A stretch of DNA of 40,180 nt, taken from IMG/VR virus record IMGVR_UViG_3300045741_000123, positions 1 through 40,180 of that record; one strand, given 5' to 3'. Both the position numbers and the translations under genes were made by a program. Shown one piece after another: positions 1,695-37,674 of the stretch. Positions within the stretch are counted from its first letter, which is position 1. Each line of letters begins with the position of its first letter. The notes beneath the pieces were generated by a model. It saw only the letters and a program-made list of their open reading frames with translations. It ran no database searches and was not told where the DNA came from. Source of the stretch: a virus.

Positions 1695-3557
1695 CTAGGC
1701 TCCAGGAGCCGCGACGACCCGCCAGCCCAGGATCTTCCAATACACTTTGTCCGAGGCCCCAGCGGAGGCGTGCTTGATGGAGAATCCTGTTCCGCTGCTA
1801 CCGTCCGTCACGGTGACTCGCATGGCACCAAGCGCCATGGCCGAGGAGTTGAACGGCTGCACCTGGATGATCGGGTGGACGTAGTCGGCCGTGCCGCCAA
1901 CGTAGTTCCGCCACACGGAGTCGCACGAGACGCTGGTGGAGGTAGCTCCGTTGGAGAGCGTTACCACTCCCTCCAGAGCGGTGCTCCCGCCCTGGTAGCT
2001 CACCACCTCGTAGTCGTAGCCGGCGGCCGGGAACCCTAGCCGCAACTGGGACGTGGAATGAGCCAGGTTGGTCTTGACCACCAGCGCCTTTCCCTTGGCC
2101 CCCGAGTCAGTGACGTTTAGCGCCTGGGTCAGCGTCGGGCTGCCCTGGTCGTCACTGGCGATGATCTCTCCGATGACGCCGTAGCTGGCCGCGCCGATCT
2201 GCACCGCTCGGCTAGGGGTGTTGTGAACGTGGATCGAGCCGATTGTGTAGTAGTCAACAGCCCCGCCGATACTCATCCCGTAGAACTTGGGGGACTCGGA
2301 GAAGATGCGGTCGATGTGGAGTCTTTGGATGGAGTTCGGTCCCGGAACGAAGACATCGGCCGTGCTGCCTGCCGCGCCGCAGTTGTAACTCCGGTACGAG
2401 CCAATTCTCAGGCTCTTGAAGTAGGCGAGATACAGGCCGGCTCCAACGGAATCTCTGCAAGTGATGGAGCCGATGGAGATGCCGTCAGGGTAGAGAGCGC
2501 CGCCGTTGTCGCCCTGGACCTTCACCCCGGAGTTAGCAGTACCATTCGTGGGCCCGATGAATGTGAGTTCGGCAAAGTTGGAGTCCTTGGATGTGTTCTG
2601 GATCTTGATACCACCCGCGCAGTTCTGCCCGATGACCTTGCCGACCTGGGAATATTGGACGGTGAAGATCGCCGGGTTTCCTTGCAGGGTCCCGTATGTC
2701 CCGAGACCCGCTACGCCCTTCACGTTGTCGATCTGGGAGTACCGGACCTCGAACAACTTGCTGCCCGAAGTCCCGAAACTCCAGCAGTCGCCATCCGACC
2801 CGGTACAGGTAAGCCCGTCAAATGTTCCGTAGTCGATATTCAGGAATCGGCCAGCGTAGTCACGGGCATTGTTCACCGTCAGGTTCCGTACAATTGGCCT
2901 TAGCACACCCTGTAGGGACAGGCAGGGCATCTCTCCAGTGGCGGGGTTCGTCTGGTTAGACTTGTTTCCGTCAAGTGTCCCGTTGACGACACTGATGTCG
3001 GCATCCGTGTATCCAGGCTCTGCCGATGCAGACCCATTGATGAGGATGGCTGCGTTGGAGGAGTTCGCTAGCCTAAGAGTCCCACCCTGTAGATCGAAGG
3101 TCACTCCGGTCGGGATGGACAGGGCATATCTGTTGGCTGTCCCGTTGATGGTCTTCGTGCCAACGTAGGAAACTAGAAATGTCCCCTTGCCTAGAACTAC
3201 GGTCTTACCACCAGCATTCAGGGCGTTCTGAATCGCCGTGGTGCTGTCCGTGACTCCAGTTGGGTCCGCCCCGCTGTAATCCATTACCCGGATGACGTCT
3301 GCGGCACGGTCGGCTAGGCTCCTAGCGTTGCTCCCTCCGGTGGCGGTGACGAGGGCGCTGCTAGCAGAAGGCGTCCCGAGAGATAGGGACGAGATATCCT
3401 GGGCACTAGAGATGGCCTGGTCCCGGAGGTCCAGCAACGCTTGCCGGGTCTGGTTCAGGTCGGCAGCCTTGATCTCGGTGGCTGCTCCAGAAGGGCTACG
3501 AGCGTCGGTCTTGACGGCCGGGAGTACCGCCGACCCGTCCGTGATGAAGTCGCTCAA
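1695..3557 (-). CDS. Tailspike 1, pectate-lyase-like right-handed beta-helix
   Basis: A 620-residue receptor-binding or depolymerase spike. Residues 1-55 are an anchor shared with the second spike at 18578-20275 (MSDFI..G..VLPAVK.D.R.P.GA). A pectate-lyase_3-type start follows at about residues 88-130 (VMDYSGADPTGVTDSTTAIQ, then GGKTVVLGKGTFLVS). The long middle is rich in N/G/T turns, such as VVNGTLDGNKSN, as expected of parallel beta-helix coils. The C-terminal region is beta-rich and different from spike 2. Spikes of this class cut or bind capsule or O-antigen chains; the actual glycan is unknown. Catalytic residues cannot be assigned by eye. It overlaps the preceding gene by 4 bp. Confidence 0.85.
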   Translation of the reverse strand: MSDFITDGSAVLPAVKTDARSPSGAATEIKAADLNQTRQALLDLRDQAISSAQDISSLSLGTPSASSALVTATGGSNARSLADRAADVIRVMDYSGADPTGVTDSTTAIQNALNAGGKTVVLGKGTFLVSYVGTKTINGTANRYALSIPTGVTFDLQGGTLRLANSSNAAILINGSASAEPGYTDADISVVNGTLDGNKSNQTNPATGEMPCLSLQGVLRPIVRNLTVNNARDYAGRFLNIDYGTFDGLTCTGSDGDCWSFGTSGSKLFEVRYSQIDNVKGVAGLGTYGTLQGNPAIFTVQYSQVGKVIGQNCAGGIKIQNTSKDSNFAELTFIGPTNGTANSGVKVQGDNGGALYPDGISIGSITCRDSVGAGLYLAYFKSLRIGSYRSYNCGAAGSTADVFVPGPNSIQRLHIDRIFSESPKFYGMSIGGAVDYYTIGSIHVHNTPSRAVQIGAASYGVIGEIIASDDQGSPTLTQALNVTDSGAKGKALVVKTNLAHSTSQLRLGFPAAGYDYEVVSYQGGSTALEGVVTLSNGATSTSVSCDSVWRNYVGGTADYVHPIIQVQPFNSSAMALGAMRVTVTDGSSGTGFSIKHASAGASDKVYWKILGWRVVAAPGA

Positions 3558-3739
3558 CGGGCTCTGCCCTTCTTCCCCCGGAGCTGATCCGCCATCGCCT
3601 TCTGCAACATCGGCCCACCCTCATCAGCCTTGTTGAACTCCTCGGCAACCGACTTCGGAGGGCCTCCACCACCAGGCTTCTTCCACCCGTGCGCAACTGC
3701 CGCCATCAACCTGGCCTGAGCAGGGCTCTTACTTGGCAT
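3554..3739 (-). CDS. Small basic phage protein with SKSPAQARLM motif
   Basis: A 61-residue basic protein beginning MPSKSPAQARLMAAVAHGWKKP, with a short AEEFNKAD helix and a GKKGRAR tail. The SK(S/A)xAQxRLM..VAH signature recurs in short proteins of many tailed phages, usually near structural or terminase genes; their role is not established. ATG overlaps the previous stop, and its own stop overlaps the spike start by 4 bp (ATGA), so it is translationally coupled. Confidence 0.75.
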   Translation of the reverse strand: MPSKSPAQARLMAAVAHGWKKPGGGGPPKSVAEEFNKADEGGPMLQKAMADQLRGKKGRAR

Positions 3740-3926
3740 GAGGACTCTCGTAGGCGTGGGACAGATACTCGACGCACCGCCCGCCGTCGTGGTTGTGCTG
3801 GTAAGTCATCTGGGAGCACTCATAGGGCGAAGCCTGCCAGAACGTGACCAGGCCGCACTTGTTGCACGCCCACCGATACTTCCCGTCCCAACCAGAACCA
3901 GCGTGGTCGCACGGTTCACTTGGCAT
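3729..3926 (-). CDS. Small Cys/His-rich protein, zinc-ribbon-like
   Basis: A 65-residue protein with CDH near the N-terminus, ACNKCG (CxxC) at about residues 20-24, and later C and H residues (YECSQ, HNHDGGRC). This could form one zinc site. Both ends overlap neighbouring genes by about 11 bp, as in a coupled operon. No function is recognised; nucleic-acid or protein binding is only a guess. Confidence 0.65.
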   Translation of the reverse strand: MPSEPCDHAGSGWDGKYRWACNKCGLVTFWQASPYECSQMTYQHNHDGGRCVEYLSHAYESPHAK

Positions 3927-4350
3927 CGGGATCCATCTCGTTCGTGGGCAAAGATGGCGTACTCGTAGCGGCCGGCAACTCGTACTCCCGCTTGAGCGTA
4001 TTCACTACCACCTGCACCCCTACCTCTCCCTCCACCGTCTGCTTCGGCTTCTCCACCGTCGCATCCAAGAGAATCTTCAACGCCGCCAACTCCGTAGCGA
4101 TGTTCCTCTTATCCCTACCCTTCCGGGCTCCCCTCGCGATCGCATGCAGGTTCCGGATCTCCTGCGCCGTCAGCCTCAACGCCTCCTTCACCGCCTCATC
4201 ACTCAACGCCGCCTCCTGCAACCCAGCCACCACCGCCCTGCGATCCTTCTGATACCGGTTCACCCGGTCGCTCTCCAATATCCTCGTCCCCTGCTCCTCC
4301 AAACTAGGAGCATCGTCGCTACTCAACCCCTCAGGCCACCGAGGCATCAC
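3916..4350 (-). CDS. Possible terminase small subunit
   Basis: A 144-residue, largely helical protein; the start is GTG at 4350 or the adjacent ATG at 4347. Helices rich in E/A/R (residues 12-95) are followed by a strand-like VEGEVGVQVVVNTLKREYE, an arrangement seen in some small terminase C-termini (portal/large-subunit contact region). No clear helix-turn-helix can be assigned, so the call is tentative. On the circular map it is the first well-supported gene of the late unit, with TerL about 8 kb downstream, beyond a spike and fibre cassette. It may instead be an unrelated late protein. Confidence 0.4.
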   Translation of the reverse strand: MMPRWPEGLSSDDAPSLEEQGTRILESDRVNRYQKDRRAVVAGLQEAALSDEAVKEALRLTAQEIRNLHAIARGARKGRDKRNIATELAALKILLDATVEKPKQTVEGEVGVQVVVNTLKREYELPAATSTPSLPTNEMDPDAK

Positions 4351-4880
4351 TAACCACCCTTCCGGGTTCTGCCACGGGTCCCACCTTCGACACCTGCTCT
4401 CATCCCAGACTTACCCAGGGGGGAGGGTCCAGAACCAACTTCGCGGGTAGAGGGACGGGGCCCACCGTTGCTGTCTGCTGGCGTTCCGGATTGACCCCCC
4501 GGGGAGGGGTCTGTGCTAGGGGCAACGCCGTCAGGCTTGCGCTGTCCTACTAGGGTAACGCTAGGCTTTGGAGCTGGGATGCCTAGGCGCAGCGCACCAG
4601 GCGGAGGGCGAGAGCGTGACGTGAGTTCGTATCGTTGCACGTCCAAGTAGTCCCGCGGCCGCACATCCCTAGCGCCCACACAGCACCTCGGAACCTCACC
4701 TGGTAACGCGTGCACTACAGCCACACACGCCGAGAAACTCTCAGACGTTGCGAAGGCTGTCAAGTCGGGCCGTTGCGGAGAGGCTTGAGCGCTTGGTTTG
4801 GCGACGTACTTGAGCGCCGGCAGCGCTTCGGCTTTGGTGACGTCGCCTGCGAACGGAACCGAATGCGCGAGAGTACGCAT
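4350..4880 (-). CDS. Doubtful ORF, Pro/Arg/Gly-rich
   Basis: An open frame of 176 codons with an unremarkable first half and a low-complexity Pro/Gly/Ser/Arg second half. Its stop overlaps the following gene start by 1 bp, which favours coding. Against it, the ATG lies between a candidate -35 (TTGACA, 4900-4895) and -10 (4877-4872), so a transcript from that promoter would lack this start. No family resemblance is visible. It may be a leader region, a non-coding stretch with an open frame, or a shorter gene starting at an internal GTG. Confidence 0.3.
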   Translation of the reverse strand: MRTLAHSVPFAGDVTKAEALPALKYVAKPSAQASPQRPDLTAFATSESFSACVAVVHALPGEVPRCCVGARDVRPRDYLDVQRYELTSRSRPPPGALRLGIPAPKPSVTLVGQRKPDGVAPSTDPSPGGQSGTPADSNGGPRPSTREVGSGPSPLGKSGMRAGVEGGTRGRTRKGG

Positions 4881-7500: not shown

Positions 7501-8222
7501 CGTGCGGCCTCCGATGCGGGGATGGGGACGGCGCTGCGAAGCACAGTGACGAGCCACGCCACCGACTTAGGTTCGGTGTCTCGCTGCTTGCACGTCTGAG
7601 CGATGAAGTTTTGAGCCCCGAGAAGGCTGGTCGCAGTAACTAGCGCCTCCAACTCGTCGGCCTGGCCGTTCTTCGCCGGGATGAGGCCGTGGCCTAGCCC
7701 TGACTCCACGAACGCGACGAGTTCAGCCCCAAGGGGTCCTAGATTACTCCCGCCCGCTGGCGTTGATCTGAGGCGAGCGGGAGTAGAGATAATCTCTGTC
7801 TCCTTCTCCCTCTCTCTCTCCCTCTCACCATGTACGTACGCGTTTCGTACGCGTTTCGTACGCGTACGTTCCCTGTACGTACGCAGACGCTTTTGTTCTT
7901 TCTTCCGCTTCGCGATGTGCGCGCCCGCGTAGTCGTGCCAATCATGGACGTAGAACCCATCGCTGGTTTCATCAATAAGTTCGGCCCTAACCAAGCAATC
8001 AACGAAGTGCTTGGAGTCGCCTTTCCAGCCGGCCGCGTCGGCTATGACCTCGACGGCGCCGGCCCCCTCGATCTTCCCATCGCCCTGGTGCTGTGCGGTC
8101 CACATCCAGAGGCTCACGACGTAGGCCCATGCCCACTCATCGGCCAGGAACACGCGCAACCGGACCGCCTTCTTGTGGCCCTTCCAGTCGGCAGCGAGTT
8201 GGATCCACGGGAGCCCCGCCAT
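7497..8222 (-). CDS. Replication initiator / replisome organiser-like protein
   Basis: A 241-residue protein resembling phage replication O/replisome-organiser proteins. Residues 1-95 look like a winged helix (WIQLAADW..., then DGFYVHDWHDYAGAHIAKRK). A very basic, charged linker follows (residues 105-142, with Arg/Glu repeats), then a C-terminal helical domain that could contact the host helicase loader. The linker is encoded by a striking repeat cluster (7745-7883) that may be the origin itself, as lambda ori lies within gene O. No polymerase or helicase gene is recognised in the window, so host replication proteins are presumably recruited. TAG at the end of the preceding gene abuts the ATG at 8222. 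Confidence 0.65.
   Translation of the reverse strand: MAGLPWIQLAADWKGHKKAVRLRVFLADEWAWAYVVSLWMWTAQHQGDGKIEGAGAVEVIADAAGWKGDSKHFVDCLVRAELIDETSDGFYVHDWHDYAGAHIAKRKKEQKRLRTYRERTRTKRVRNAYVHGEREREREKETEIISTPARLRSTPAGGSNLGPLGAELVAFVESGLGHGLIPAKNGQADELEALVTATSLLGAQNFIAQTCKQRDTEPKSVAWLVTVLRSAVPIPASEAAR
7745..7883. other. Candidate replication origin inside the initiator-like gene
   Basis: Four elements lie side by side. TACTCCCGC (7745-7753) pairs exactly with GCGGGAGTA (7777-7785). The next is a 13-bp palindrome, AGAGATAATCTCT (7785-7797). A pyrimidine-only tract runs about 30 bp (7798-7828). Then come seven GTACG motifs starting at 7832, 7836, 7847, 7858, 7864, 7875 and 7879, with GTACGCGTTTC repeated in tandem at an 11-bp period. 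Eleven is not a multiple of three, so the repeat is not explained by the protein sequence. Lambda-type origins have iterons in the initiator gene. Confidence 0.5.
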
Positions 8223-9870: not shown

Positions 9871-10089
9871 CTAGGCCGCTTGCCGGCGGAACAGGGTGGA
9901 GATCGGCACCTCCAAGGCTTCCGCCAGCAGAACGTATCTGTCAAGGCTCGTCTGCACGATGCCTCGCTCCACCTTGGAGAGCATCGAGGCGTCCATTCCT
10001 GCCATGCGGCCGAGCGCGTGGACCGAGAGCCCGCGCGCCTGCCTCCGCTTCCGAATCGCCGCCCCAACTGTTTGCACCATGTCAGCCAT
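9871..10089 (-). CDS. XRE-family HTH repressor-like protein
   Basis: A 72-residue XRE/Cro-CI type DNA-binding protein. Helix-turn-helix residues are clear: IRKRRQARGLSVHALGRMAG, then MDASMLSKVERGIVQTSLDRYVLLAEALEVP. Start chosen at 10089 (MADMV), with MVQTV at 10080 as the alternative; a longer frame to 10173 would run through the promoter/operator region. It lacks the C-terminal cleavage/dimerisation domain of lambda CI, so it would be a minimal repressor. It is divergent from the Cro-like gene at 10220 and probably binds the inverted repeat at 10097-10128. Confidence 0.8.
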   Translation of the reverse strand: MADMVQTVGAAIRKRRQARGLSVHALGRMAGMDASMLSKVERGIVQTSLDRYVLLAEALEVPISTLFRRQAA

Positions 10090-10096
10090 AGGGCGT

Positions 10097-10128
10097 ATCT
10101 TGCACGAACGGGGAAGCGGATGCAAGAT
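10097..10128. promoter_or_regulatory. Candidate operator in the divergent HTH region
   Basis: ATCTTGCA (10097-10104) and TGCAAGAT (10121-10128) are perfect inverted 8-bp arms 16 bp apart, immediately in front of the repressor-like gene and 30 bp from the plus-strand -35. On the minus strand the arms also supply a weak promoter-like pair, TTGCAT (10125-10120) and CAAGAT (10102-10097), at 17-bp spacing, so binding here could autoregulate the repressor. Confidence 0.5.
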
Positions 10129-10157
10129 GTCCCTTATGGGGCTATGCCGGGCAGGGC

Positions 10158-10186
10158 TTGACACGGGGAACACGGTGCCCTAGACT
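10158..10186 (+). promoter_or_regulatory. Strong sigma70-type early rightward promoter
   Basis: A perfect -35 TTGACA (10158-10163) is separated by exactly 17 bp from TAGACT (10181-10186, 4 of 6 to TATAAT). Transcription would start near 10193. The leader has a GGAGG ribosome-binding site (about 10206-10210) before ATG 10220. Position and direction match a lambda PR-like promoter. Confidence 0.75.
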
Positions 10187-10219: not shown

Positions 10220-10423
10220 ATGCCGCTCGCCACCACCGTCGCCAAGAACCTCAAGTCGTACCGCCTCAAGCGGAAGCTCTCGCAGGACGCCCTCGCCACC
10301 AAGGCGGGGATCTCCGTCTCCTACGTCTCGATGCTGGAGCGGGAGCAGCGCAGTCCGGCCCTCGACACGCTGGAGTCGCTCGCCAAGGTGTTCGGCGTCC
10401 CCCCGTGGGACCTTCTGAGGTAG
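10220..10423 (+). CDS. Cro-like XRE-family HTH protein
   Basis: A 67-residue helix-turn-helix protein, nearly all DNA-binding domain: VAKNLKSYRLKRKLSQDALATKAGIS, VSYVSMLEREQRSP (recognition region), then LDTLESLAKVFGVPPWDLL. Length and layout are typical of Cro or small XRE regulators. It is the first gene of the plus-strand early unit, behind a strong promoter, and faces the repressor-like gene. It would bind the shared intergenic operator and repress one or both promoters (inference). Confidence 0.85.
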   Translation: MPLATTVAKNLKSYRLKRKLSQDALATKAGISVSYVSMLEREQRSPALDTLESLAKVFGVPPWDLLR

Positions 10424-10425
10424 CC

Positions 10426-10674
10426 ATGCCCCTCTGCGAGTGGTGCCATTCGGTCGAGACGGCCCGGGAGGGCGACCTATGCTCCCCCCTGTGCGTGGAG
10501 GCGTTCCGGGGTGATGCGGTGCGTCGCGAGGGGGTCCGAGACCTGCTCGCTGAACTCGACATCGCCAACCGATGCGCGTGGGCGATGAGCACGCCGCTCT
10601 CCCCCGCCGAGGCGATGGTCCGCAACGAGGCTCGCGCCGTCGAGATGGTCCGCAAGGCGATGGGGAGGGGGTAG
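10426..10674 (+). CDS. Small zinc-finger protein
   Basis: An 82-residue protein; start chosen at ATG 10426, just after the Cro-like stop. The N-terminus MPLCEWCHSVE and LCSPLCVEAF provide four cysteines (CxxC...CxxxC) for one zinc. A helical, Arg/Glu-rich tail follows. This resembles the small zinc-finger regulators found in phage early operons, but no name can be given. Confidence 0.65.
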   Translation: MPLCEWCHSVETAREGDLCSPLCVEAFRGDAVRREGVRDLLAELDIANRCAWAMSTPLSPAEAMVRNEARAVEMVRKAMGRG

Positions 10675-12924: not shown

Positions 12925-13679
12925 AAACGGTCGAGGCATGGTGGTTCGCAGCACCGGACAAGGACGGCAAGGTGCTCCTGCCGCACGGCGACGGGCGAGA
13001 GGTCAAGGCCGGCGAGAAGCTGACCGTTGCCGGCAAGATCGTCCCCTGCGAGCACGGTCTGCACGCCAGCGTCCGGGCCATCGACGCTCTGGAGTACTCG
13101 CCGGGGGCGACCATCTGCCGGGTCCGGCTCTCCGGAACCATCGTGGAGCACGGCGGCGACAAGCTGGCCGCTTCGGAGCGCACGGTACTGTGGATGGCCG
13201 ACGCGACGCGGACCCTGCATGAGTTCGCCGTGTGGGTCGCGCGGCAGGCGTTGCTCCGGGAGCGGAAGCGGGGGCGCGAGCCAGACAAGCGGTCGTGGGA
13301 GGCGCTGCGCGTCAAGGCGCTGTGGATCCGGGGCAAGGCCACGGACGCAGAGTTGGACGCCGCCAGGGACGCCGCCAGGGCCGCCGCCTGGGACGCCGCC
13401 AGCGCCGCCAGGGCCGCCGCCTGGGACGCCGCCGGGGACGCCGCCTGGGACGCCGCCAGGGCCGCCGCCTGGGACGCCGCCGGGGCCGCCGCCAGGGACG
13501 CCGCCAGGGACGCCGTCAGGGCCGCCGCCTGGGCCGCCGCCGGGGACGCCGCCTGGGACGCCGCCAGCGCCGCCGCCTGGGCCGCCGCCAGGGACGCCGC
13601 CAACAAGCGCCTGGAGTCGATGCTCAACCGGCTGCCGAAGCGGAAGCGCGCCCCGGCGCCCGAGAGGAGCGGGCCGTGA
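12921..13679 (+). CDS. Ala-rich tetrapeptide-repeat protein (DUF7666-like N-terminus)
   Basis: A 252-residue protein. Residues 1-105 form a domain I associate with the phage DUF7666 family (EAWWFAAPDKDG, then CEHGLHAS...ALEYSPGATICRVRLSG..VEHGGDKLAASERTVLW). Residues about 146-227 are tandem four-residue units of the form (R/W/G/S)-(D/A)-A-A, roughly 20 of them, with one three-residue slip. A basic tail follows. The repeats should form a long Ala-rich helix with Trp and Arg stripes. Function unknown; the domain is typical of phage early regions. Confidence 0.7.
   Translation: MKTVEAWWFAAPDKDGKVLLPHGDGREVKAGEKLTVAGKIVPCEHGLHASVRAIDALEYSPGATICRVRLSGTIVEHGGDKLAASERTVLWMADATRTLHEFAVWVARQALLRERKRGREPDKRSWEALRVKALWIRGKATDAELDAARDAARAAAWDAASAARAAAWDAAGDAAWDAARAAAWDAAGAAARDAARDAVRAAAWAAAGDAAWDAASAAAWAAARDAANKRLESMLNRLPKRKRAPAPERSGP
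13356..13602 (+). repeat. 12-bp tandem coding repeat
   Basis: Variants of GCCGCC(A/T)GGG(A/C)C recur about 20 times almost without interruption, encoding the tetrapeptide array. The stretch is almost entirely G and C. Such arrays change length easily by slippage. Confidence 0.85.
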
Positions 13680-32539: not shown

Positions 32540-34664
32540 TGTTCCCCGTCTCCTTGCTAGTGGCCTTCAACGCTTCGGCCCTGGTCTTGGCCTCCAACTG
32601 CTGCATCGACTGCTCATGCTCTGCCTGACCATGAGCGGCATCGAGATTGGCCTTGTGGATGTCCACCGCCGTCTTGGCTTGGTGCGCCTTCAAGTCCATG
32701 AGCTTCGCTGCGAGGTCCGCCTTCATCTTGGTCTGCTGCTGGGCGATGCCCATCTGCGCCTTCTGGCCCTCGGCCTGGGCCTTCACCTGAGCCACTTGGA
32801 GTTGCGGATTCGGAGGTGGAGGCTGCATCTGTGCCTGCTGGGCTGCCTGCGTAGCCGCGAGAACCATCTGGTCAAGAACGCCCTCGATGGTGGACCCTCC
32901 CCGGAAACCGGCGATGGCCCACTGTAGCATCTGGAGCAGGTACGGCATGGCCCAAGGTGCCGCCTGACCCACGGGTAGGCTGGACTGGAGGAACTGGCTG
33001 ATCGCCATCAGGAACTCGCTGCGCTCCTGCTTGACGGCAGCCATGTCGGCCATACTGACCGACTCAGGCTTCACCTCGATCCGATACTGGTAGAAGTTGC
33101 TCTTGACGAGTCCGACCGCCTGCTGCGCGAGCTGCTGGTCTGCACCGACCATGTATTGGATGTTGGACCGCTCTACGATGGTCTTGGGATCGAAGTGCTT
33201 GGAGATGATCTCTGCCTTGAGCGACTGAACATCGGATGCGAATCGGGCGAAGTCGTTCTGGAGTCGCTGCACCCTAGCCGAAGCGAACTTGGCCTTGAGG
33301 GACTGTTCCGTCGCCGTTGCGCCGCTCTGGCTCTGGCCCCGCATGATGTCGCTCATGCCAGTGACCTGATAGAGCACCTGCATCAGCTCAGACCGGTATT
33401 CGCGGAGTACCTGTAGAGCGCCGACGATCTGCTCCAGTGGAAGCCAGTCCACGACCCCGGCTAGGCCTCCCTTCTCCTTGAAGGCCGCGAAGTTGTCGAT
33501 TGGGATGAGTTCATTCGCCACCGACTCGGACAAGAGCCGTCGGATTCCTTCATCGCTCTTGTCGTAGACACCTCGAACGGCGATGGCGCGCTCCAGGAGC
33601 GTGATCCTGGTGCTGACCATATCCACTTCATCGTAGAGGTCTTGGGCCAGCACGTAGTCCGCGCGTTGCACGAACTTAGTCGTGGTGACGTTGGCGATCA
33701 GCGGCCGGGGGCAGGGGAAAAACCCGTCCAGTCCCAGCGGGTCCTCCTTCACGTCAAGGATCTTGTCGAAGCCCTTGACCCACCAGTAGCACTTGCGATC
33801 TTCCTTGCACCAGATTTCCCAGACATCGGCACGGGCCCAAGGATCGTTCTTGAGGCCGTCGTTTTCGTCCTTCTGGATGTTCCGGTTCTGGGCGAGCGGA
33901 ACCTGCTCCCCGTACTCCGGGAAGCGCTTGCGCATGGCGTCGCGGGTCATCGGGGCCTTGAAGGCTACCCAGCGAACCTCATCCCAGGTACGGCACGGGG
34001 ACCAGCGGAAGTCCTCCCAGTGGACGTAATCGCAGTCCACATCCTCATGCGTCTTTACCGGGTCAGGGGTATAGGCCGGCGCAAGTTCCTTCCCGCTATC
34101 CTGCATCTCCCCGCCACAGGATGGGCAGGGGACCGCCTCTCCGACCGGCATCGGGGCCCGCGTGGTGCACTGCGGGCAGGTATGGTCGTTGATGGGCGGA
34201 ACCTCGTCCTGCTCATCGAAGTCCGCTTCGTACCGTAGCCGCATCTGGCCCAGACCAGGCAGCAGCCGGTCCTCCAAGCAGTTCTCCAGGGCGCCCGCGT
34301 AAGTATCCGAATCTCTTTCGATGTCCGTGTTGAGGAGACGCTGGAGGATTTCCGCACCGAGGCGGGCAACCTTGTCGTCATGGTCCGCGAAGCGGCGCTT
34401 CACATCGACCTTCGGCTCCTTCCCGTATAGAAGGGCCTGGAGTGTCTGGACGTTTGAGGTGAACAGATTGACTCTCGTTTCCCCGTCGTTCCGCAGTTCC
34501 GAGCGGTTATCGAGGAAGCGCTTCACGACCTTGGCGCCTGACTCCAAGGCGTATTTCTGGTTCTCCTCCGCGGCAGCCATCTCGGCGGACCACTTCGCCG
34601 CCAGGCCGGTCGGGGAATACTCGAACTGATCCTGCGACTCCATCTTTCCGACTGTCTCACTCAT
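32532..34664 (-). CDS. Portal protein with zinc-ribbon insertion
   Basis: A 710-residue podovirus-type portal, the dodecameric ring through which DNA is packaged and ejected. N-terminal helical stem region, then LFTSNVQTLQALLYGKEPKVDVKRR typical of this portal class. At residues 160-190 an unusual insertion carries C163-C166 and C180-C183 (HTCPQC...PCPSCGG). The core continues with DCDYVHWEDFRWSPCRTWDEVRWVAFK and YQVTGMSDIMRGQSQSGATATEQSLKAKFASARVQRLQNDFARF, highly typical. The last ~120 residues are a Gln-rich coiled coil (barrel/core contact). It overlaps TerL by 4 bp. Confidence 0.88.
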   Translation of the reverse strand: MSETVGKMESQDQFEYSPTGLAAKWSAEMAAAEENQKYALESGAKVVKRFLDNRSELRNDGETRVNLFTSNVQTLQALLYGKEPKVDVKRRFADHDDKVARLGAEILQRLLNTDIERDSDTYAGALENCLEDRLLPGLGQMRLRYEADFDEQDEVPPINDHTCPQCTTRAPMPVGEAVPCPSCGGEMQDSGKELAPAYTPDPVKTHEDVDCDYVHWEDFRWSPCRTWDEVRWVAFKAPMTRDAMRKRFPEYGEQVPLAQNRNIQKDENDGLKNDPWARADVWEIWCKEDRKCYWWVKGFDKILDVKEDPLGLDGFFPCPRPLIANVTTTKFVQRADYVLAQDLYDEVDMVSTRITLLERAIAVRGVYDKSDEGIRRLLSESVANELIPIDNFAAFKEKGGLAGVVDWLPLEQIVGALQVLREYRSELMQVLYQVTGMSDIMRGQSQSGATATEQSLKAKFASARVQRLQNDFARFASDVQSLKAEIISKHFDPKTIVERSNIQYMVGADQQLAQQAVGLVKSNFYQYRIEVKPESVSMADMAAVKQERSEFLMAISQFLQSSLPVGQAAPWAMPYLLQMLQWAIAGFRGGSTIEGVLDQMVLAATQAAQQAQMQPPPPNPQLQVAQVKAQAEGQKAQMGIAQQQTKMKADLAAKLMDLKAHQAKTAVDIHKANLDAAHGQAEHEQSMQQLEAKTRAEALKATSKETGNNG

Positions 34665-36058
34665 GCGATTCTCCTACGCCCCGAGATGGAGAGCACCCGG
34701 TCATCATGGAGTTGGTCAAGCGTGAAGCTGTGGTGTAGCGGCTTGGCGACTGGTTCAACCTTCTTCGGCTCCGGCTTCCGGATGCGAAGTTCGGAAGCCT
34801 TGACTACGGCCGCGGTGTATCGGAAGGCATCGCTCGCGTGGCTAGACCAGTCGTGGCTGGGCCTAGTCGAGTAGTCATTCTTGTCCTCGTCGTACTCGTA
34901 ATGGTACTCGCGCAGGCACTTGATGCCTTCAACAGTGCGCGGGTGGAACCGAACGCCGTTCAGGATCATCCACCGTGCAGCCTGGATCCCTTCCAGAAGT
35001 GGCAGGTTTGGGCCAACGGACACCTGTCCGGGGTACTTTCGGAGGAACTGGTTGAGGATGGATACACCAGCAGCGAGGGTTGTCTGCCGTGCATCGTGCG
35101 GGAGCCAGTGCTTGACGTACTTGTACGGCTTCCCGTCGATGACCTTGAAGTAGTGGTCGAGCGGTTGTCCGTGATCTTCATAGTAGTCGATGAAATGAAC
35201 GAGGTTGTCTTTTACCTGCCAGAACCAGATGGCAGTCGAGTCCGTAAAACCCAGGTCCCACGAAGTAAATACGTCCCCGTAGGAAGGGTCGAAGTCTGCA
35301 AGTCCTCCCTGTCGCTCAACATCGTCAATGAGATCGCCCCAGACGGAACCGACAAGCGCAGCGGTCCAGTCGCAGAGGTACTCCTGCTTGATGAAGGCTT
35401 CTGGTTTCCCGCTCGCCCGTTCCTCTTGGATGGTCTTGTCGGGGTCATAGGCCCTCGTATCGTAGAGAGTCTTGAGGTCGCAGTACCAAGCAGCATCCGA
35501 CTTGGCGCGGTCGTACAGATCCTTCGCGTGGTTCGAGCCTCTGGGAGTCGTGATGTAGACTTCCCAGCCGTCGTTTTCCCGGAGCATCGGGGAGATCAGG
35601 TTGGTGGAGCGAGGAGAGCAGATCGCGTATTCGCTGTAGACGACGCCCACCGGACCGGCACCGACGATTTCCACCCGGTCTGAGCCGATGAGCCGCCAGA
35701 TCGAGCCGCACTTCAACTCGATCATCATCTGCTGCTCATCCTTGCGCTTCACGATGGAGCCCGGACGCTTCGGGTCGAGGAAGCCGGGAAAGACGTTCTC
35801 CAGGGTCCGCTTTCCCTCGCGGGTGAATCCTTCCCAGATGGCCTTCCGAGCCTGGGCCTGCGTGGGGTAGACGTGCCAATAGGCTCCCTTGCGCTGGTGA
35901 GCCATCTTGGCTGTCTGATGGAGCGCCACCAGATCCTTGCCAGAACGGCGATGCCAGACGTTGATGGCCTTCTTCCCGCCGTTGTCCATGAAGTCCATGA
36001 ACGGGATCTGGTATGGCCTAGGCGTGAAGTCGTTGGGGAGGTTGATCTGTTCTCTCAT
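34661..36058 (-). CDS. terL: Terminase large subunit
   Basis: A 465-residue packaging ATPase and nuclease; start chosen at ATG 36058 (MREQINLPNDFTPRPYQ), which overlaps the upstream stop (ATGA). Adenine-motif Q near residue 17; Walker A variant WHRRSGKD (35-42); Walker B VVYSEYA with E143; coupling motif ITTPRG (169-173). The C-terminal RNase H-like nuclease has SWDLGFTDSTAIW (D268, D273) and a final HDWSSHASDAFRY acidic site. Length is normal. It pumps DNA into the prohead through the portal encoded next. Confidence 0.93.
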   Translation of the reverse strand: MREQINLPNDFTPRPYQIPFMDFMDNGGKKAINVWHRRSGKDLVALHQTAKMAHQRKGAYWHVYPTQAQARKAIWEGFTREGKRTLENVFPGFLDPKRPGSIVKRKDEQQMMIELKCGSIWRLIGSDRVEIVGAGPVGVVYSEYAICSPRSTNLISPMLRENDGWEVYITTPRGSNHAKDLYDRAKSDAAWYCDLKTLYDTRAYDPDKTIQEERASGKPEAFIKQEYLCDWTAALVGSVWGDLIDDVERQGGLADFDPSYGDVFTSWDLGFTDSTAIWFWQVKDNLVHFIDYYEDHGQPLDHYFKVIDGKPYKYVKHWLPHDARQTTLAAGVSILNQFLRKYPGQVSVGPNLPLLEGIQAARWMILNGVRFHPRTVEGIKCLREYHYEYDEDKNDYSTRPSHDWSSHASDAFRYTAAVVKASELRIRKPEPKKVEPVAKPLHHSFTLDQLHDDRVLSISGRRRIA

Positions 36059-37674
36059 GGGAACTGACCCCCCACCCACTTAGAGCCGTCCCAGATGAAG
36101 AAGTTGACTTGCTGGGCAAACCAGACCTGTGCCTCGCAGGAGTCCCCAAACCCAAGAATGTCCTGCTCGCTGCCTGTGGCCGCCACGCCACCGATGGAAG
36201 CGGCCTGGGACTCTCCGAAGCCTAGGGTGTCTTGCTGGCCTCCGCTGGGACCAAGGGCGATGGTGGCAGCACAGGAGTCGCCAAAGCCCAGCGTGTCCTT
36301 GTGGGCCGCGATCTGGAGCTGGAGCGAAATCTGCTGGTCGGTGAGACCGAGAACGTCGATCTGCACCGACTGCTGCGATTGCTTGGACTCCTGAGTTTCT
36401 GAGAAGCCGAGGGTATCAACCTCTCCAGCCGTGAGCCCAGAGGCAGAGCCGAGCGTGGCTGCCTGGCTCTCCGAGAAGCCCAGGGTGTCGGTCTGGACGG
36501 CTGCCTGACCCTGACTGGCGACCTGGCTCTCGGAGAAGCCGAGAGTGTCCGACTCGGCCGAGACCTGGGTTTGCTTCGATACCTGGGGGTCAGAGAACCC
36601 AAGCGTATCGGACTCAACTGAAACCTGAGTCTGGAGCGATACTTGTGGATCTGAGAAGCCAAGAGTGTCGATCTCGACGCCGGCCTGCTTCTGCGCAGCG
36701 GACTGAGACTCGGAGAACCCGAGCGTATCGCTCTCGACTGCGGCCTGGCCCTGTTTGGCTACCTGCGGGTCGGAGAACCCTAGGGTATCTGCCTCTACGG
36801 ATACCTGGGTCTGCTTGGAGACCTGGGTTTCGGAGTCTCCAAGGGTGTCGAGTTCACCGCCGCTGGGACCGCTGGTCCCGGTCGTCCCGCCAAGGATGGC
36901 AAAGGCGTTCTGCTGAAAGGCGTTCGGCTGGAACAGGGTATATGGGCCGGTGAACTTGGACGCCTGCTGCGGGTCCGAGTCTCCCGTTGTGTCCGTCTGG
37001 CTCTGGGAGACGGAAGCAACGGCAAGGATTTCAACCGCGGCTAGTCCGTTGAACGCAGTGTTTCCGGTCCAGCCAACATTGATATTCCCGGAGGTGCCGG
37101 AGGTGTTATCTCCGACCGCAGACCGGGACGTGGAGACATCCACCGTCTCCTGCTGCTCGTTGGTGCTGCCGACCGGACTGAGCGCGGCCCCTTCGTCGTA
37201 GTTGGCGACGTAGAGGTAAGACCCGGCCGTCACCCCGGTCAGGGTGATGTTGTTGGGAGCGCTGGAGGTGTTTACGGCGGTGTTGAAAACGCCGATGGTC
37301 GTCTGTGCCCCAAGCAGTGCATCGATGGTGACAGCCAGCGACGCCTGCGTGGAACTCGTCGCCGTGATATCGACGCTGACGCTGGAGAGCGATCCGGTAG
37401 TCGTCGCGGTCCAGACTTGGGCGACGCCATTGTTCGTCGCCGCCAGCGCTTCCTTTTGCTTCGTGAAGACGGAGGCGTTGGCAGGGGTTCCGCCCGTCCA
37501 GGCGATGCTGAACGGAGTCTGATTCGTACCCGTAAAGTTCTCACGGGCGACGGTGACGACAATCAGCGCTGGGGAGTTGGTTACGCTGAACGTTCCAGAC
37601 GTGACATTGCCCACCGTCCCGTTGGCAGTGACCTTGATCGGGAACGCTGAGCCGCCATCACGACTGATCGCCAT
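36055..37674 (-). CDS. Fibre protein with twelve 20-residue repeats
   Basis: A 539-residue protein. Residues 1-215 look like one or two Ig-like/beta domains (FPIKVTANGTVGNVTSGTFSVTNSPALIVVTVARENFTG..., GVTAGSYLYVANYDEG). Residues about 275-515 are tandem repeats based on DTLGFSDPQVSxQxQVSVES, at an exact 60-bp period for the first seven. The C-terminus is FFIWDGSKWVGGQF, a short binding-tip-like motif also seen in other phage fibres. It lies upstream of TerL within a block of fibre-like genes. Probably a trimeric or elongated virion appendage; the repeat family is not one I recognise. Confidence 0.65.
   Translation of the reverse strand: MAISRDGGSAFPIKVTANGTVGNVTSGTFSVTNSPALIVVTVARENFTGTNQTPFSIAWTGGTPANASVFTKQKEALAATNNGVAQVWTATTTGSLSSVSVDITATSSTQASLAVTIDALLGAQTTIGVFNTAVNTSSAPNNITLTGVTAGSYLYVANYDEGAALSPVGSTNEQQETVDVSTSRSAVGDNTSGTSGNINVGWTGNTAFNGLAAVEILAVASVSQSQTDTTGDSDPQQASKFTGPYTLFQPNAFQQNAFAILGGTTGTSGPSGGELDTLGDSETQVSKQTQVSVEADTLGFSDPQVAKQGQAAVESDTLGFSESQSAAQKQAGVEIDTLGFSDPQVSLQTQVSVESDTLGFSDPQVSKQTQVSAESDTLGFSESQVASQGQAAVQTDTLGFSESQAATLGSASGLTAGEVDTLGFSETQESKQSQQSVQIDVLGLTDQQISLQLQIAAHKDTLGFGDSCAATIALGPSGGQQDTLGFGESQAASIGGVAATGSEQDILGFGDSCEAQVWFAQQVNFFIWDGSKWVGGQFP
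36130..36849 (-). repeat. 60-bp tandem coding repeats in fibre gene
   Basis: Units begin (Asp codon) at 36849, 36789, 36729, 36669, 36609, 36549 and 36489 with an exact 60-bp step, then 36417 (72-bp step) and more divergent units down to 36162. Consensus residues are D-T-L-G-F-S-(D/E)-x-Q. Confidence 0.85.

Follow-up and report, generated by a model that had tools for sequence, protein, structure and literature searches.

We analyzed 40,180 nucleotides of viral DNA (the window; positions 1 to 40,180 of record IMGVR_UViG_3300045741_000123), which contains a replication initiator gene with repeats inside it (Table 1). The 241-aa product of this gene matched the phrog_9474 profile, "replication initiation protein," over residues 6–132 (E = 1.9e-21). 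The match covered positions 3–131 of the 288 in the profile, the N-terminal part that all 28 aligned members match, and did not extend through the C-terminus; the protein thus belongs to phrog_9474 by its N-domain only. Weaker matches linked it to other families of phage initiators and replisome organizers. The Pfam scan of the protein gave no match above cut-off, the Phage_rep_org_N family (PF09681) scoring 12.4 bits against a gathering cut-off of 23.3, and homology to lambda O was not detectable by hhalign (probability 0.05%, E = 0.84).

AlphaFold2, supplied with 28 aligned sequences, gave pLDDT values >90 across most of residues 20–130. The model has a confident helical and β-hairpin domain (residues about 10–92), a long helix/linker (95–145), and a low-confidence C-terminal remainder. 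From the order of the elements in this model, we read the N-terminal domain (residues 1–92) as probably winged-helix-like. Foldseek comparison with viral models (BFVD) returned replisome organizer and primosomal proteins; comparison with the PDB returned nothing at E < 0.001. The neighboring genes include RusA, Gam, and ERF, the usual replication and recombination module of a phage. No helicase or helicase loader was recognized among the scanned window proteins. A search of viral_contigs for close DNA relatives of the window, by protein and by iteron pattern, found none.

Table 1 Positions of features in the window and of the initiator gene of metagenomic contig L013
Feature	Position	Strand	Remarks
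Replication initiator gene, 241 aa	7497–8222	−	phrog_9474, AlphaFold2, BFVD matches
Imperfect inverted repeat	7745–7785	.	13+13 nt, 15-nt spacer
Odd 13-bp palindrome AGAGATAATCTCT	7785–7797	.	Read from sequence
Polypurine tract, coding strand (pyrimidine on +)	7799–7826	−	6-nt period, GGGAGA
Iteron array	7835–7888	.	11-bp units from 7835, 7846, 7857, 7878
Perfect 12-bp palindrome CGTACGCGTACG	7857–7868	.	Inside iteron array, read from sequence
L013 initiator, 121 aa	L013:2402–2767		Stops ahead of linker

Repeats within the initiator gene

The iteron array is located about 335–390 bp into the initiator gene, in DNA encoding linker codons about 112–145. Its core is CGTACGC(G/A), and the unit on the coding strand is AAACGCGTACG. 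CGTACG occurs five times in the linker DNA (at 7835, 7846, 7857, 7863, and 7878), with one further copy in the 40 kb outside the array; this is the densest 6-mer cluster of the 40-kb window. In the coding orientation, GCGTACG is found at 7878, 7857, 7846, and 7835, in steps of 21, 11, and 11 bp. The seven GTACG motifs counted in an earlier note on this DNA are indeed present within 7832–7883 (52 bp), and in 100 Markov resamples of the 40-kb window no 52 bp held more than three. The 11-bp tandem reported in the same note proved to be larger than claimed: three units at 7835–7867 match at 100% (2.8 copies), and a fourth copy is found at 21 bp. The tandem at 7835–7867 is the sole exact 11-bp array in the window.

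Synonymous-codon resampling of the linker was performed 5000 times with the codon usage of the window. None of the resamples reached the five CGTACG sites (mean 0.39, maximum 3), the 20-nt direct repeat (maximum 18), or the ten 6-bp palindromes (maximum 7) that are observed there. We therefore conclude, in agreement with the earlier note, that the protein is not the cause of the repeats.

Adjoining the iterons, on their 3′ side with respect to the coding strand, is the polypurine tract. It had been described as a pyrimidine tract of ~30 bp, and on the plus strand it is a run of 28 nt with a 6-nt period (TCTCCC). No other purine/pyrimidine run of the window is as long; in 50 Markov resamples the longest runs averaged 16.7 nt and did not exceed 25. 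The position of the tract matches that of the 5-nt tract of relatives and that of the A-rich tract of lambda ori. With a GC content of 57% (16/28) it is GA-rich and lacks the AT-richness of a lambda-type unwinding region; because it is a GC-rich purine tract, easy melting is not obvious.

The inverted repeats did not stand out in the same way. What had been described as a 9-bp inverted repeat actually has 13-nt arms (7745–7757 and 7773–7785) with one mismatch, and it is not beyond chance, since three such repeats occur in the 40 kb and zero to three in Markov sequences. The 13-bp palindrome is present, with 6-nt arms only, and by estimate several are expected by chance. The repeat cluster as first described thus stands with respect to its iterons and pyrimidine tract and falls with respect to both inverted repeats. 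A hairpin as a third conserved module was considered and rejected: perfect stems of at least 6 were found in 8 of 23 relatives, compared with 5.5 expected, and the control regions gave 8 and 6.

The cumulative GC-skew minimum of the window, a linear record without end repeats, is at 10,434, which is 2.6 kb from the array and coincides with a switch in gene direction. In a circular Microcystis phage, GC skew likewise did not match the position of the initiator. Two HTH regulators (9871–10173, minus strand, and 10220–10423, plus strand) adjoin the skew minimum and look like a divergent lysogeny switch. Repeats of other kinds are found elsewhere in the window. At 13355–13602, in GC-rich DNA with overlapping ORFs, a 12-bp unit, GGACGCCGCCAG, whose length is a multiple of three, is repeated about 21 times, and 60-bp imperfect tandem repeats occur at 36533–36825 inside a long ORF (36055–37674, minus strand) that adjoins a terminase-like ORF (34661–36079).

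Repeat spacing in homologous genes

Homologs were obtained by tblastn (8 phage records) and by profile searches (27 viral loci and 6 bacterial-genome loci). For each gene the HDW motif at the end of the N-domain was located, and non-codon repeats were scored against synonymous-codon shuffles. In nearly all genes the repeats peaked 22–63 codons past HDW, and often none of the shuffles reached the peak. Offsets were counted from exact runs 8 nt or longer in 23 non-redundant genes, with 200 shuffle trials. Offsets of 5, 10, and 15 were seen in 11, 9, and 10 genes, respectively, and offsets of 11 and 22 in 8 and 10. The shuffle means were 0.5–0.7 for offsets 5, 10, 11, and 22, and 2.4 for offset 15; the observed counts were never reached in the 200 trials. 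Minor offsets of 9, 25, 35, and 43 were also above the shuffles, in 2–4 genes each, and the rest were at background or barely above it. Two cyanophages were added for the analysis of subsets with lower N-domain identity. In the subset with <60% identity (15 genes), offsets 5, 10, 11, and 22 stood out, plus 9 and 43; in that with <50% identity (10 genes), the same four stood out, plus 12. The earlier note had predicted that spacing would be kept beyond codon constraint in relatives, and 11/22-bp repeats are indeed found in the linker below 50% identity, with differing units.

The layout of the linker in the homologs is a set of 11/22-bp DNA repeats followed by a 5-nt-period tract. The iterons were 5′ of the tract in all 15 genes in which both modules were scored, a count that includes close relatives and therefore represents fewer independent cases; several homologs had one module only. 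The coding-strand excess of A over T peaks in the same linker stretch. The unit sequences vary among the homologs, as illustrated by GTCCAACGGAT, CGACCGCCGGA, GTCACGCGCCC, CACGTGCAGCG, ACGACCGGCGG, and AACCGTTCACA.

The phrog_9474 initiators of phages Mx9 (Myxococcus), Harrison (Paenibacillus), Lagaffe (Faecalibacterium), and Shimadzu (Roseburia) have the same N-terminal domain as the window protein, and their genes have repeats at the same linker position. The phrog_9474 relatives differ from the window in their unit sequences and in having mostly a 5-nt tract instead of the 6-nt GA tract; their C-terminal domains vary, being of the DnaB_2/DnaD type in 6 of 28. In the named relatives the initiator gene lies beside ERF, SSB, and a helicase loader or helicase. 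Further cases are the Microcystis phage, with 11-bp units, and phages Shoya and Bert, with 5-nt tracts. One locus, L008, has kept the N-domain, but no exact 5/10/11/22/23-bp array was found in its 5.5 kb. Gene product 11 of Burkholderia phage Bcep176 (L049:703–1509) is encoded by a primosomal gene without HDW that contains 22-bp-spaced GGAAACAGTCCCAA beyond codon constraint, hinting that the layout may be wider than phrog_9474. In the linkers of L009, L016, and L028, about 50–80 codons past HDW, AT-rich trinucleotide runs (TAG/TAA or TAC) follow the 5-nt tract; these runs resemble DnaA-trios, yet their translation gives Ser/Asn or Thr linkers as well.

The scan used for these counts recovered the annotated iterons of lambda O as a positive control (codons 115–140, offsets 20, 23, and 44), and with them the lambda-type precedent of iterons inside gene O. 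Among eight other window genes scanned, seven had no such repeat, and the 2 in Gam were within chance (22 of 200 shuffles). The scan was not significant for the rep gene of TP901-1 (20 of 200 shuffles reached its score), which we take to carry an internal origin; therefore, an internal origin in a phage initiator gene does not always come with this layout.

Repeats accompany the phrog_9474 domain in Firmicutes, Myxococcus, cyanobacterial, and environmental phages, and repeat similarity goes up with N-domain identity. These observations bear on the idea that the array is an origin-like site used by a protein other than the encoded initiator, such as the DnaA of the host or a transcription factor of the phage. 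It is true that the link between the 241-aa initiator and the array DNA is one that we infer; however, repeats that travel with one protein domain across phages of varied hosts, and become more alike as that domain does, make use by another protein improbable.

In L013 the repeats are outside the coding sequence. The gene is followed by a gap of 175 bp (2768–2942) with stops in all three frames. Directly after the gene is the repeat pair CGCATAACGTT/CGCATAACGTA (2775–2796, offset 11), then AGAGTAGAGTACC; besides the pair, a short purine-rich stretch lies in this untranslated DNA. In Markov shuffles, the offset-11 run had P = 0.0008, and a run this long at any offset from 4 to 50 had P = 0.031; the 5-nt signal was weak (P = 0.08). 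Because the pair sits in untranslated DNA, in a metagenomic contig for which an assembly error is possible, the array needs no translation, and the protein cannot explain the pair. An 11-mer, AACGTACGCGT, is common to the window and L013, a sharing that is only suggestive because 454 of 5000 Markov shuffles reached the same. No plasmid relatives of the L013 initiator protein were found. L013 also encodes a DnaN-like sliding clamp (3294–4394, read from the translation) and has a long helicase-like ORF upstream.

The linkers of these proteins are repeat-prone and their units differ between phages, as might be expected if replication slippage had produced a low-complexity linker without DNA function in a protein that tolerates any repeats. 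Slippage, however, would not produce two period classes that recur in a fixed order, and it does not fit with the 11-bp pair kept outside the L013 gene. It also fits poorly with the 8-mers of homolog pairs at 25–50% identity, of which the iteron region shares more than do the C-terminal control and the N-domain DNA. We consider a linker of this kind, made by slippage and serving no DNA function, to be very unlikely.

A candidate origin and its alternatives

An origin inside the initiator gene is, as a kind, already known from textbooks. Gene O of lambda carries iterons and an AT-rich tract that constitute ori (PMC7466680), and gp38 of SPP1 binds repeats inside gene 38, at oriL (PMC6316719). 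Lambda and the window each have four iterons midway along the initiator gene, around codons 112–145 (PMC7466680), and 3′ of these a strand-asymmetric tract whose purines are on the coding strand. The window thus has two features of the lambda-type class, iterons in the initiator gene beyond codon constraint and an adjoining 3′ strand-asymmetric tract. The lambda iterons are 18–19 bp and spaced 20–24 bp, whereas those of the window are 11 bp long and have a palindromic core rich in GC (the earlier note had recognized that the iteron sequence and the palindromic core differ from those of lambda); the lambda tract is AT-rich, whereas the GA tract of the window is 57% GC with a 6-nt period. SPP1 oriL, compared by description only, similarly has direct repeats within the gene of the replisome organizer gp38 (PMC6316719), but it differs in its AT-rich unwinding element, and SPP1 possesses a second origin at another site. 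In Bacillus subtilis oriC, DnaA-trios and a DnaD recognition element are next to the initiator sites (PMC10201434). The window resembles oriC in having a short-period strand-specific element beside initiator sites and differs from it in that 3-nt trios and TnnT pairs are found there. The DnaD recognition element (TnnT) was rejected as a candidate: on the T-rich strand the window has 2, compared with 2.2 in shuffles, and there was no general enrichment in tracts.

Initiators of iteron plasmids often autoregulate, and the palindromic CGTACG cores look like operator sites. By binding the repeats, the initiator could then repress or time the transcription or translation of its gene, with replication starting elsewhere. 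Such an operator would be oddly placed, since the array is about 335–390 bp inside the gene, away from a promoter, and it would not account for the adjoining short-period tract that is conserved in order. The lambda and SPP1 sites at the same place are origins (PMC7466680, PMC6316719). We regard a purely autoregulatory role as having little probability.

When the repeats are judged jointly by where they lie, how they are ordered and spaced, and their independence from coding, an intragenic origin of the lambda/SPP1 style is the best reading. With a probability of roughly 0.83, we propose that 7799–7888 is the core of a replication origin that lies where its own initiator gene encodes the linker and that is presumably bound by the product of that gene. 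This reading of the sequence, put forward in the earlier note, has gained support from the spacing kept in relatives, the non-coding pair of L013, and the lambda O control. At such an origin, the 241-aa protein would use its N-terminal winged-helix-like domain to bind the four GCGTACG iterons, and their 11/11/21-bp spacing would set the bound copies on one helix face, giving a compact complex. The complex might strain the neighboring strand-asymmetric tract, whose purines are on the coding strand, and so open it. The strand exposed in this way would receive the replicative helicase, brought in by the C-terminal part of the protein or by another factor.

New here are the single-turn 11-bp iterons, the GC-rich palindromic core, and the 6-nt purine tract replacing an AT-rich one. 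For the family-wide layout of 11/22 bp and then 5–6 nt with changing letters, no published description was found in a partial coverage of the literature, so that its absence is weak evidence. A broader and more doubtful idea, which we offer tentatively, is that the superfamily has an origin code in which the geometry is kept and the letters are not. Iterons of one turn (11 bp) or two turns (22 bp) would be followed by a strand-biased tract with a 5–6-nt period, which would be read stepwise as a single strand after opening. Such a tract would be the counterpart of the DnaA-trios with a different step, and the protein linker would owe its form to its own coding DNA.

If these proposals are true, sequence alone suffices to read the origin of an uncultured phage, and a search of initiator linkers for 11/22-bp spacing followed by a 5–6-nt period would locate the origins of many phages that lack an annotated one. 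The occurrence of a short-period tract, with differing letters, in phages of unrelated hosts raises the question of what reads the 5-nt step during origin opening.
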